From assembly GCA_018650165.1 (NCBI GenBank), contig JABIGM010000019.1, forward strand, positions 1 to 36,108: a stretch of 36,108 nucleotides of DNA, read 5' to 3'. Under the pieces are notes generated by a model that did not search any database, had not been told where the DNA came from, and saw only the letters and a program-made list of their open reading frames with translations. The translations under genes were made by a program, and so were the position numbers. This DNA comes from Methanobacteriota archaeon (lineage in GTDB: Archaea > Thermoplasmatota > Poseidoniia > Poseidoniales > Poseidoniaceae). Of this stretch, positions 31,963-36,108 are shown piece after piece (positions within the stretch are counted from its first letter, which is position 1; each line of letters opens with the position of its first letter).

Positions 31963-33123
31963 TCAGTCAAACCGTTGAAATCCAACAGAACTACTGTTTT
32001 GAGATTTGGCCCGAGTGAGTTTGAGCATGTCTCCAAGTTGGTCAGGTTCCATGCGTGCTTTGTTCATTTCAATTCCACCTACTCCGGTAATAATTGCCAT
32101 GACTTTGATTGTATCGCCAAATCCAGGGTCCTGTCTTGCACCCCAAATTACATTGGCTTCATCACTGACATTTGCAGTCATCAAATCAACGACCTGTGAT
32201 GCGTTTTCTAGAGTCATAAATTTACCTCCAGTTACATGAATTAAAACACCGGTCGCTCCAGATACATCCACATCTAATAGTGGATGATTGAGAGCTTCGT
32301 GCACTACCTCTTCAGGTCCGCGGTCACTTTCTCCATACAGCATCATTGTGACTCCACCGTTTGCCATAATAGCGCGAACATCTGCGAAGTCGAGGTTGAT
32401 TAGAGAAGGTAATGTGATTGTTTCAACGATACCCTTCACAATTTCTGCGACCAATTGATCCATTATTGAAAATGCTTCATCCAAAGGTAGGTTTGGTACG
32501 AAATGAAGTAATCGGTTATTGTCTAGAACTAGAACTGCATCAGCAACCTGTCTCAAACTCTCAAGACCTTCCAAAGCGCGCTTCATTCTCTGTCGACGTT
32601 CTACATGGAATGGAGTTGTTACAATTCCAACAACCAATGCGCCGGCAGCTTTTGCTTCTTCAGCCACAATAGGACAAATTCCAGTACCGGAACCTCCGCC
32701 TAATCCACTAGCGATGAATACTAAATCTGCTCCTGTAACAATCCTTCGAATCATTTCCCGGCCTGCTTCTGCACAGCGCCTTCCAGTACTAGGGTCGCCT
32801 CCAGCTCCAAGCCCTCGAGTAATATGTCTACCAACTAACAATTTTTGAAGAGCGCGGGTGTGATCTAAATGCTGTTTGTCGGTATTGATTGCAACAGTAA
32901 TTGCACCTTCTACACCAAGATGAGTAATACGATTGAGTGTGTTGTTTCCTGAACCCCCGCAACCAACGATTAGAATACGCGGATTTGGAACACCGAATGA
33001 GCCCATGTCATCATCCAGCAACGCAGTAGAGCCCTTTCCAATTGCCTCTTGGGCAAGTGAAGCCACCATGTCATTCAACGATTGGTCTGCTGGTCTAGTT
33101 GTGCGTGTTGCATCGGGCCCCAT
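31963..33123 (-). CDS. ftsZ: Cell-division GTPase FtsZ
   Basis: FtsZ polymerises into the division ring. The 386-residue protein has the nucleotide-binding start ILIVGCGGSGNNTLNRI, the tubulin signature as GLGGGSGTGICPIVAE (Ser for the usual Thr in GGGTGTG), and the T7 loop SLINLDFADVRAIM that completes the GTPase site in the next subunit. The C-terminal half (MLYGESDRGPEEVVHEALNH, then VIWGARQDPGFGD) also fits FtsZ. The first 40 residues are an unconserved extension. A GGAGG site lies nine bases before the ATG. Its upstream region carries three 13-bp repeats and is shared with divergent tRNA-Tyr. Confidence 0.95.
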   Translation of the reverse strand: MGPDATRTTRPADQSLNDMVASLAQEAIGKGSTALLDDDMGSFGVPNPRILIVGCGGSGNNTLNRITHLGVEGAITVAINTDKQHLDHTRALQKLLVGRHITRGLGAGGDPSTGRRCAEAGREMIRRIVTGADLVFIASGLGGGSGTGICPIVAEEAKAAGALVVGIVTTPFHVERRQRMKRALEGLESLRQVADAVLVLDNNRLLHFVPNLPLDEAFSIMDQLVAEIVKGIVETITLPSLINLDFADVRAIMANGGVTMMLYGESDRGPEEVVHEALNHPLLDVDVSGATGVLIHVTGGKFMTLENASQVVDLMTANVSDEANVIWGARQDPGFGDTIKVMAIITGVGGIEMNKARMEPDQLGDMLKLTRAKSQNSSSVGFQRFD

Positions 33124-33162
33124 CCCTTACGCCTCCAAGAAAAACAAGGCTGTTCATTTCAC

Positions 33163-33168
33163 TATTAA
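33163..33168 (-). promoter_or_regulatory. Likely TATA box of ftsZ
   Basis: On the minus strand TTAATA lies about 40 bases ahead of the ftsZ ATG. Initiation roughly 25 bases downstream would leave a short leader with the GGAGG ribosome site at 33136-33132. The 13-bp repeats begin ten bases upstream of it. Confidence 0.45.
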
Positions 33169-33177
33169 CGGTGATGC

Positions 33178-33216
33178 TCGCGAGCATGAGTCGCGAGCCT
33201 ATTTCGCGACCCTAAT
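33178..33216. repeat. Three tandem 13-bp repeats containing TCGCGA
   Basis: TCGCGA occurs at 33178, 33191 and 33204, exactly 13 bases apart, giving units TCGCGAGCATGAG, TCGCGAGCCTATT and TCGCGACCCTAAT. The first is inside a longer palindrome, GCTCGCGAGC. The array lies between the ftsZ TATA-like box and the one for tRNA-Tyr, so it may be an operator for a repressor or activator of ftsZ. No similar group was noticed elsewhere in the window. Confidence 0.65.
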
Positions 33217-33243
33217 ATCAAGTCCAGTTCAGTCTGAAGAATT

Positions 33244-33249
33244 GATATA
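33244..33249 (+). promoter_or_regulatory. Likely TATA box of tRNA-Tyr
   Basis: GATATA lies in the sequence AATTGATATACGCG, 24-29 bases before the first base of tRNA-Tyr. That is the usual distance for an archaeal TATA box, so the call is reasonable by position. Confidence 0.5.
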
Positions 33250-33272: not shown

Positions 33273-33373
33273 CCTCGCTTAGCTCAGTTGGTAGAGCACC
33301 TGGCTGTAGTTGGAAAATTCCAAACGTCTCAGCAGACACCAGGGTGTCCCCAGTTCAAGTCTGGGAGCGGGGA
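33273..33373 (+). tRNA. tRNA-Tyr (anticodon GUA) with a 28-base intron
   Basis: Exons fold into a cloverleaf: acceptor CCTCGCT/AGCGGGG with the C1-G72 pair known for archaeal tRNA-Tyr, D-arm GCTC/GAGC, anticodon stem CCTGG/CCAGG with loop CTGTAGA, T-arm CCCAG-TTCAAGT-CTGGG, discriminator A. The intron (33310-33337) sits at the canonical 37/38 position. A strict bulge-helix-bulge can be drawn: central helix CTGT with GCAG, three-base bulges AGT and ACA on either side, each cut after its second base. No CCA is encoded. The repeat-rich spacer begins right after the tRNA. Confidence 0.93.
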
Positions 33374-33436
33374 CTCTAATTCTAGACGTTAGGTTAGTCC
33401 ACGCTAAATCGAGAGGTTGAACGATGTGTGGCCAAA

Positions 33437-33553
33437 CCTCTCTCATGAGAGCGGGGGCCACTTCCGTTGGTATCAGATTCTATCTTGCTCCCCACATAGT
33501 CGAGAGTTTGCTCGCTTTGCTCACAGCCCTCTCTCATGAGATCGGGGACCACT
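33437..33553. repeat. Pair of 26-bp direct repeats downstream of tRNA-Tyr
   Basis: CCTCTCTCATGAGAGCGGGG at 33437, running on to GCCACT at 33462, recurs at 33528-33553 with 24 of 26 bases identical. Each copy contains a CTCATGAG palindrome (CTCTCATGAGAG in the first copy). The first copy also lies inside a larger stem, GTGGCC (33428-33433) with GGCCAC (33456-33461), and GAGAGGTT (33411-33418) can pair with AACCTCTC (33435-33442). The end of each repeat resembles the tRNA-Tyr 3' end. They may be remnants of an integration site or regulatory stems. Confidence 0.65.
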
Positions 33554-33556
33554 AAT
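33511..33556 (+). pseudogene. Possible tRNA-Tyr fragment remnant
   Basis: CTCGCTTTGCTCA (33511-33523) matches the 5' part of tRNA-Tyr (CTCGCTTAGCTCA) in 12 of 13 bases, and GATCGGGGACCACTAAT (33540-33556) resembles its 3' end plus flank (GAGCGGGGACTCTAAT). The middle of a tRNA is missing. This could be a decayed partial copy left by integration or recombination at the tRNA gene. Short matches like these can also arise by chance. Confidence 0.35.
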
Positions 33557-33563
33557 CTTCGAT

Positions 33564-34247
33564 TTATTCAACGATAGCATCGAAGAATACAGCATTCCAA
33601 GAAACATTCACTTCTTCCCCACTATCTGAAACAGTTGGGAGCACAGAGCCCGGAGGATTATTTACGCTTACTTCGACATCAAGTTCGAACACTCCTTGTC
33701 CATGAGATGAATCCATCCATTCATTCACCCAGAATTGTTTATCGTTTCCGGCTACACTCAGGCTTGTTCCATTGTAATTAGGGAATACGTATAGAACAAG
33801 TGACATAGTTTCACAATCCGAATTCATGGCACTAAGTACATTGTTTTCATGACCCCATACAGCACTCACTCCAGTCGGAGTTAAGTCGACAGATACAGTA
33901 TCGCACCGGTCTTGTAATTCACCTGATGTTTCATCATAACTAATGTCTACGAAAAGTATACCAAAGCCGTTATGAGATTCAAACATCTCGTTTGGAGCAG
34001 AAAACTCTAGAGTCACTCTTTCATCATCATTAACAACTCTCGAATCTTCATAGACAAACGAATTTTCTTCAAAATCAATAGTATAATTTTCTAAATCAAA
34101 TTGAGATTGGATATCATCCTTTAAAACGAACCAGAATACCGATGCATGATAAATTACGACCGCAACTAAAAATGTCAAAAAGATAGTCATACCATTACGA
34201 GGCTCATCTTTAGAAAAAAAGTCTTTGAGAATATTATTTTCAGTCAT
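33564..34247 (-). CDS. Hypothetical single-pass membrane protein with extracytoplasmic domain
   Basis: Residues 1-20 are charged, followed by one membrane helix (MTIFLTFLVAVVIYHASVFWF). The remaining 185 residues are acidic and beta-rich with a cysteine pair (DRCDTV and NSDCETM), likely outside the cell. No family is recognised. The gene starts one base after the stop of the polytopic gene (TAA then ATG), so the two are probably expressed together. A role as partner of that membrane protein is inferred. Composition is AT-richer than the ribosomal block. Confidence 0.72.
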   Translation of the reverse strand: MTENNILKDFFSKDEPRNGMTIFLTFLVAVVIYHASVFWFVLKDDIQSQFDLENYTIDFEENSFVYEDSRVVNDDERVTLEFSAPNEMFESHNGFGILFVDISYDETSGELQDRCDTVSVDLTPTGVSAVWGHENNVLSAMNSDCETMSLVLYVFPNYNGTSLSVAGNDKQFWVNEWMDSSHGQGVFELDVEVSVNNPPGSVLPTVSDSGEEVNVSWNAVFFDAIVE

Positions 34248-35564
34248 TTAAGCACCTCTTTCGATTGCAATATTCACAAGGATATCCATTTGCCAAATAA
34301 TAAATGAAACTAGTAAAGCCACCAAACAATATATCAAGCAAGCCCAATCAATTCTGTGAATATATTTTCTTGGAATATCAATTTCTGGGAACCACTTTTT
34401 ATCGACTCCTTTACGTAAATCTGCAGGATTACTTACCAATGTGTGGAATGATTTTTCTTCCCAACCAATTCCGAAAGCGATTATAATTCCAAGTAGTGCA
34501 GCAGTAATCATTTGATTTATTGGAATAACCGATTGTATCAATTCAAGAATTGCAGATGTAGCTACAACGATCAGTATGATTGACATTATCTTCGCCATAG
34601 GCTTTGTCTTTTCATTGATGTCAAATAATCCAAATTTGAGTAAAATGTACATGGCAATGATTGGTCTGGCAATTGTGAAATGTAAATTTGTAGTGAATAT
34701 TGACCATAATTCAAGAACCTCGCCTTTGCCTTCGCCCAAAACAAATCCAGTATCGGATCCAGTGGAATATATCGAATAACCAATTAATCCTAGAGCAAAA
34801 TAAGGCGCTATAATATACAATAATTTGTTAGGATCACCTTTTATTGCCTGGTAAACCTCAATACTCACAATTGCTAATCCAGCGGCTATTCCAATCGAAT
34901 AACCTGATGTCCACATGAAATCCCATAGAGTCGAAGTAAACGATCCTCCTCCAAGGTCGATAAAGAAGAAGTATTCTGATTGTAGAATTAATCCTGGCCA
35001 CCACATCCAAACATGACCCAGAACCAAAGTTAGGAACAAACCTGCAAGAAGTGCGATATTCCTGGTAGCATCTGTTCTCTTCTCACGAGGTGCCAATCGG
35101 AATTTGATATACACTGTGCCCCACAATAATGAAGAAGAATAGTAAACGAAGCCAGGAATGTGCAAGGCTGTAAAATTTAATCCTACAACGTCTAGTATCA
35201 GTCGGAACACTATGAACCCGGCTATTATGGAGAAGCCAATTTTGACCTGTTTGATATTTCTCAAAAATGGGACAGGGTATAGTAATGCTATTGAACAAAT
35301 GCTGGCAGCAAATATGTAGTCCATAGCAAACGCGATTTCAAGCCAAAATTGCCACACGAGTCCGTCTGTTGAAAGAACCTCCTCGTTGAAATATCCAGTT
35401 GCAGCGTTTTGAATTCCTTTTGTGATGAACATCAGGCACAAAATGTGAGCGGCTATCGCTTCATTCCATGCTAAATTTTCATTGCGTCTTACGAGACGTA
35501 ATGACAATCCACCAAGAGCGATACTTAGAATTGCACCGATAAAGAGTAAATTCGTCTCTTCCAT
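34248..35564 (-). CDS. Polytopic membrane protein of unknown family
   Basis: About eleven hydrophobic helices can be counted in this 438-residue product, the first being LLFIGAILSIALGGLSLRL and the last LIYCLVALLVSFIIWQMDI; there is no enzyme motif or domain I recognise. A short cytoplasmic segment near the end (NPADLRKGVDKKWFPEIDIP) precedes the last helix. It resembles the sensor-like membrane parts of some signalling proteins but has no kinase. The ATG at 35564 is preferred; the GTG at 35675 would overlap the upstream gene by 29 bases and add 37 residues with no helix. Middle gene of the operon. Confidence 0.75.
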   Translation of the reverse strand: MEETNLLFIGAILSIALGGLSLRLVRRNENLAWNEAIAAHILCLMFITKGIQNAATGYFNEEVLSTDGLVWQFWLEIAFAMDYIFAASICSIALLYPVPFLRNIKQVKIGFSIIAGFIVFRLILDVVGLNFTALHIPGFVYYSSSLLWGTVYIKFRLAPREKRTDATRNIALLAGLFLTLVLGHVWMWWPGLILQSEYFFFIDLGGGSFTSTLWDFMWTSGYSIGIAAGLAIVSIEVYQAIKGDPNKLLYIIAPYFALGLIGYSIYSTGSDTGFVLGEGKGEVLELWSIFTTNLHFTIARPIIAMYILLKFGLFDINEKTKPMAKIMSIILIVVATSAILELIQSVIPINQMITAALLGIIIAFGIGWEEKSFHTLVSNPADLRKGVDKKWFPEIDIPRKYIHRIDWACLIYCLVALLVSFIIWQMDILVNIAIERGA

Positions 35565-35646
35565 AATCTCGGCTAAATCAGTGTCTACAATAACTTTGGC
35601 CCGAATAGAAGTAATTTGGCTATTTTTGATCCAAGTCTGGTAATTA

Positions 35647-36108
35647 TCAAACCGGTTGGAGAGTCTGATAACCACCAGGACGCATCAATTTACCATCTCT
35701 GCATAACGCATCGACCAAATCTTCAGCAGCATCTCGTGAAATATCGCAGCGATTCGCTTCTGTCAGAACATCATTGAGAGATACAACTTGTCCTGTTTCC
35801 ACATGTATTCTTCGAACTATTTCTAGGATTGTTCTTTCTCGAATCCTATTATTTCTTGGTCGACTTTTCTCTTTCTCAATAATTTCGTCAGCTTCTTCCA
35901 TAGTAATTGGGAATTCTATATTTCTGGAATCGATATTGTGATTTCTTAATTTTTGATCTATTACACATTGAATACAATGTTCGTCAATATTTTCTCGAAG
36001 TAGTTTTTCAATAAACTGACTTCGAGAACTATACTCTCCCTCTTCACTCTTCTTCTCAATCAAGTCAATTAAATCACTACTTAGGCTCACAGATAACTGG
36101 TACTTCCT
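35647..36108 (-). CDS. RHH/winged-helix DNA-binding regulator, 5' end outside the window
   Basis: The ORF track begins at a GTG at 36090, but the frame stays open to the window edge, reading RKYQLSVSLSSDLIDLIEKK, so the true start lies beyond 36108. That start has the strand and first helix of a ribbon-helix-helix DNA-binding domain (SRSQFIEKLLREN follows). The C-terminal 75 residues (TILEIVRRIHVETGQVVSLN to DALCRDGKLMRPGGYQTLQP) match the winged-helix fold seen at the C-terminus of archaeal MCM. A CIQC pair near residue 40 could bind zinc. A two-domain DNA-binding regulator of the operon is the likely role. Confidence 0.7.
   Translation of the reverse strand, partial: RKYQLSVSLSSDLIDLIEKKSEEGEYSSRSQFIEKLLRENIDEHCIQCVIDQKLRNHNIDSRNIEFPITMEEADEIIEKEKSRPRNNRIRERTILEIVRRIHVETGQVVSLNDVLTEANRCDISRDAAEDLVDALCRDGKLMRPGGYQTLQPV

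Follow-up and report, generated by a model that had tools for sequence, protein, structure and literature searches.

What is a short phased repeat doing directly upstream of an archaeal cell-division gene? The hexamer TCGCGA occurs three times near the ftsZ gene in a 36,108-nt stretch of DNA (the window, taken at its whole length) from a Poseidoniaceae (Marine Group II) metagenome-assembled genome, a 1.75-Mb assembly that is ~80% complete. The surface ocean holds abundant Marine Group II archaea, none of which has been cultured as far as we know, and to our knowledge the timing of FtsZ expression in archaea outside the haloarchaea is largely unknown. A first-pass annotation of the locus had suggested two roles for the repeat, a protein-binding site governing the cell-division gene and an iteron or other replication-linked site. 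Here we ask which of these, or what else, the array is likely to be.

Position and layout of the array

The ftsZ gene (31963..33123, minus strand) encodes a protein of 386 aa that matched TIGR00065 (E 1.5e-111) and the Pfam families Tubulin and FtsZ_C. A Shine–Dalgarno sequence, GGAGG (33132..33136, minus strand), lies 8 nt before its ATG and is conserved in the congeners. Further upstream we read a TATA-like GTTAATA (33163..33169, minus strand), of which TTAATA is invariant in the genus. From the usual archaeal spacing, the ftsZ transcription start would be near 33138. The divergent gene (33273..33373, plus strand) is a tRNA with an intron in the anticodon loop (Rfam RF00005, 52.2 bits); its identity as tRNA-Tyr was read off the GTA anticodon, and its promoter has a TATA-like TTGATATA at 33242-33249. 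TIGR00065 and Rfam thus confirmed both neighbors between which the first-pass annotation had placed the array.

The segment 33178-33216 consists of three 13-mers, TCGCGAGCATGAG TCGCGAGCCTATT TCGCGACCCTAAT, and TCGCGA opens each one. We numbered the hexamers from the distal end, assigning them no strand. Site 1 (33204..33209) is the distal copy, which is eroded in several species, often to TCGCAA; site 2 (33191..33196) is the middle and most conserved copy; site 3 (33178..33183) is promoter-proximal, with 8 bp from its end to the TATA-like GTTAATA downstream. The exact 13-bp period upstream of this box, as first noticed, therefore holds for copies beginning at 33178, 33191 and 33204. With the start placed near 33138, the array would span roughly −40 to −71.

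On the ftsZ strand, the layout is GGG-TCGCGA-AATAGGC-TCGCGA-CTCATGC-TCGCGA-GCATCAC-C-GTTAATA. The GGG flank distal to site 1 (33210..33212) and the GCATCAC block between site 3 and the TATA box (33171..33177), both on the minus strand, are invariant in the genus, and the latter could be the BRE. Between sites 1 and 2 lies AAATAGGC (33197..33204, minus strand), which has its last A-side base in common with site 1 and whose AAA is genus-invariant. In the alignment, a conserved GGC precedes site 2 and a conserved GC follows site 3, whereas the bases between the two hexamers are variable; sites 2 and 3 with these flanks therefore make up an inverted repeat, GCTCGCGA-N7-TCGCGAGC (33176..33198, no strand). 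So the description of three phased copies stands, with the refinement that they are not simple direct repeats, since the flanks turn sites 2 and 3 into an inverted pair.

A search of the whole window allowing up to 3 mismatches found the triple once, against 0.01 expected in shuffles. The single hexamer was neither enriched nor depleted (7 found, 6.1 expected), and it is therefore the phasing that is unusual; TCGCGA is also the sequence recognised by the NruI restriction-modification system. When we looked for a bacterial sigma-70 promoter or an intrinsic terminator, none was found.

Conservation of the array within the genus

We then compared close relatives having ftsZ in the same arrangement, a check raised in the first-pass annotation. 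The array was kept at the same place in 15 of 15 congeners having DNA upstream of ftsZ (fourteen genomes of the search set and locus L039, which are kin to each other and mostly incomplete metagenome bins). All three hexamers were exact in 7 of these, two in 4 and only one in the remaining 4 (G005, G026, G003 and G023), the rest being degenerate. As four species retain a single intact hexamer and several have an eroded site 1, a full triple cannot be a strict requirement.

We counted the changes along the ftsZ gene tree of the 15 sequences. Site 2 had 1 change in its 6 positions, site 3 had 3 in 6 and site 1 had 12 in 6, whereas the 7-bp spacer between sites 2 and 3 had 36 changes in 7 positions, which is faster than the ftsZ third codon positions (4.0 changes per site). 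The GGG flank showed no change and GCATCAC showed 0 in 7 positions. Pooled, sites 2 and 3 had 4 changes in 12 positions; compared with the third-position rate this gives a Poisson P of 3e-16, a value that assumes independent sites and is meaningful only as an order of magnitude. When positions were permuted within the array, the full set of 18 hexamer positions gave p 0.003. The ftsZ array thereby has the sequence features expected of an archaeal promoter-proximal operator: its sites are conserved, are phased or symmetric and adjoin a promoter, and the spacers are free to vary. Judged from these sequence comparisons, it is a real and selectively maintained feature, beyond what chance would produce.

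We also considered an action of the array as RNA, where GCTCGCGA-N7-TCGCGAGC would form a hairpin in an ftsZ leader transcribed from a start further upstream. An eight-pair stem with a 7-nt loop is possible, single-strand folding of the stretch outperforms that of shuffled sequences (z −3.0, DNA parameters), and a TATATC is present upstream in the ftsZ direction, though at a position that fits the tRNA promoter. However, among the congeners no pair was changed on both sides, and the departures mostly leave unpaired cells. The conserved TATA-like box and Shine–Dalgarno sequence, moreover, are found on the downstream side of the array, at normal spacing. Owing to the absence of compensatory changes we do not favor the hairpin, and regard it as quite improbable.

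The array is anchored to ftsZ

Across the congeners, the array keeps a constant distance of 7 nt to the TATA region of ftsZ. This bears on whether the array acts chiefly on the divergent tRNA-Tyr gene, as might be supposed from its location between both promoters and because most congeners also have a CGCG overlapping the tRNA promoter. Insertions and deletions (G022, G023), however, alter the distance to the tRNA TATA box, whereas that to the ftsZ box stays constant, and we consider a primary role at the tRNA gene very improbable.

The same anchoring speaks against a replication or segregation element, be it an iteron, an origin or a partition site, although short palindromes in phase adjoining a cell-division gene could have suggested one. 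There is one short cluster of three instead of a long iteron set, and the exact array has no second copy in the assembly. Among those window proteins that were scanned with Pfam, none belonged to Cdc6/Orc1, to another initiator family or to a partition family, and the sole replication-like item in the window, in this genome only, is an MCM-like tail fused to a ribbon-helix-helix (RHH) domain at the edge. The replication-linked role raised as possible in the first-pass annotation is accordingly not supported; we rate it as extremely improbable.

Gene order differs on the two sides of the locus. The ftsZ gene and hisS downstream of it are syntenic within the genus. The DNA 3′ of tRNA-Tyr (33376-36108 in the window) differs in nearly every genus genome compared, several contigs end just past the 3′ end of the tRNA gene, and insertions seem to be frequent on this side, as at a hot spot.

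Distribution across genomes

The exact double site occurs a single time in the 1.75-Mb assembly (~80% complete), and this occurrence is at ftsZ. With up to 2 mismatches, the triple was found in 12 of 171 genomes of the family, all from the same genus, and in none of the 144 genomes of ten other family genera. As the other genera do not have the array in its triple form, it is an elaboration at the level of the genus. One of the 12 genus matches (G016, C45) sits in a long open frame and is not the ftsZ array.

Matches to the double site away from ftsZ in the genus genomes showed no excess over a reversed control pattern, and several of those inspected fell within long open frames; a wider regulon was thus rejected. 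The only promoter-like match, upstream of pyrG (CTP synthase), was also discarded, as relatives do not preserve a 13-bp array there but share a different leader block. This block, ACCCAATGTTGAAAGGGGAGGCGCGACGGCCTCAAAGCCCGTTGAAG, is conserved in the 60 bp before pyrG in most genus genomes (loci L195-L214) and is possibly a leader element.

An older element at the ftsZ promoters of Poseidoniales

Outside the genus, the ftsZ promoters carry AAATCG at a fixed offset from GTTAA: of the 36 sequences scored, all 36 have AAA, while T, C and G are each present in 34 to 35. The pattern [AGT]AA[TA]CG stands 27–31 bases before the TATA-like GTT in 46 of 65 other Poseidoniales ftsZ loci, compared with 0.004 expected per promoter; this count spans both families and includes related sequences, so that it does not represent 46 independent cases. 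The promoters showing this order-wide element, ~29 bp before the TATA-like box, are in loci L045-L110. AAATCG-N29-GTTAA occurs once in the closed MG-II chromosome CM001443, at ftsZ. Another genome that we searched has five copies, one of them the ftsZ site, and the restriction of this arrangement to ftsZ is therefore not universal.

In the array-bearing genus, the offset of this element reads AAAT(A/G)GGC, and therefore the array appears to have been built around the older element. Two distant relatives, L092 and L096, have GGCTCGCG where site 2 would be, and one other group of loci (L074, L077, L078, L080 and L082) has TCGCGA where site 3 would be. In those loci, the density of TCGCG upstream of ftsZ is ~4-fold that elsewhere. 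The array is best explained as having been elaborated, within this genus only, from an older promoter element that is ftsZ-specific and spread through the Poseidoniales. It is also possible, though we would put this forward tentatively, that a dedicated DNA-binding protein reads the order-wide, ftsZ-only AAATCG element, which in the genus would have been expanded into a three-site cooperative operator.

RHH proteins as candidate binders

A natural candidate for such a protein is a CdrS-like RHH regulator, the Poseidoniales counterpart of the haloarchaeal regulator of ftsZ. CdrS binds at −50 upstream of ftsZ1 in Haloferax volcanii, and ftsZ1 falls on repression of cdrS (PMC8406309). The cdrS–ftsZ2 locus is described in the literature as conserved across archaea, and nearly every genome of the genus has one well-conserved RHH_1 protein of ~124 aa. 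The gene for this protein, however, is not adjacent to ftsZ, and its promoter has conserved repeats of its own beside the TATA box, TGTAATCA..TGTAATACA, and lacks TCGCGA. These repeats stand in tandem directly before the TATA-like box of the RHH gene (locus L132, ~1180-1460, and the matching loci L167-L187), and the gene is likely to be autoregulated. If so, the differing repeat suggests a different recognition sequence, which makes the genus-wide RHH protein an unlikely binder of TCGCGA. We also looked for an RHH gene beside an ftsZ gene and found none; the second ftsZ is preceded by radA (identity read from the sequence).

The window itself contains an ORF with an RHH_1 domain and an MCM-like tail (35647-36108, minus strand), cut by the window edge. 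It is absent from the other genus genomes, in which only the MCM-like tail has matches, and we rejected it as the regulator. The tail shares 76% identity with the C-terminal end of a 718-aa open frame located at another place in this genome, and this protein of ~720 aa is probably an MCM. Taken together, a CdrS-like protein as the reader of the array appears unlikely.

Discussion

The array is probably a promoter-proximal operator of ftsZ, bound by a predicted transcription factor. Of the two roles first suggested, that of a phased binding site governing the cell-division gene is the one that the comparison upheld: the hexamers are held and the second spacer is free in 15 of 15 congeners. We propose that a dimeric DNA-binding protein most likely sits on the inverted repeat of sites 2 and 3, and that the bound protein would also reach over site 1 together with the conserved AAA..GGC core. 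It would bind ~40–70 bp upstream of the putative start, abutting the BRE/TATA region. From there it would most likely aid the recruitment of TBP or TFB and so activate ftsZ; repression through crowding of the BRE is the lesser option.

The likeness to other promoter sites helps to place the array among known systems. MraZ boxes are phased short repeats upstream of the dcw cell-division cluster of bacteria. They share with the ftsZ array the phased short repeats at a cell-division promoter, but they are bacterial direct repeats with another sequence and period. In archaea, the typical binding position of an activator is upstream of the BRE (PMC5512572, PMC5937170). EarA of Methanococcus maripaludis has four 6-bp sites upstream of the BRE of the fla promoter, where activation was shown experimentally (PMC5512572). 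The ftsZ array resembles this arrangement in having several 6-bp sites immediately upstream of BRE/TATA in a euryarchaeal promoter; it differs in sequence, target gene and lineage, and its activating role is predicted where that of EarA is experimental. The TFB-RF1 site of Pyrococcus furiosus, TCTG-N5-CAGA, activates transport genes (PMC5937170). It is likewise palindromic and just upstream of BRE and TATA, but it is a single site of another sequence with transport genes as its target. The CdrS site is symmetric and lies ~50 bp upstream of an archaeal ftsZ start, so that the likeness is one of symmetry and, with the putative start near 33138, of position, as the array would then fall within the ~40–110 bp upstream expected of a CdrS site; CdrS has 18 genome sites, whereas the ftsZ array was found only at ftsZ (PMC8406309). 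Given where archaeal activators typically bind, and where the EarA and CdrS sites lie, activation is the better guess; by this analogy the factor is more likely an activator than a repressor, although position alone separates the two poorly.

A literature search for TCGCGA with archaeal promoters returned nothing relevant, and we found no description of the ftsZ array in the literature searched (open-licence papers only). Going by its sequence features, then, the array represents a familiar general type of operator, and for this group of archaea the literature that we searched gives no account of ftsZ control. As a short, ftsZ-specific and selectively held predicted operator, it can serve as bait for the regulator of cell division in Marine Group II archaea, and the older element nested within it shows how such an operator grows.
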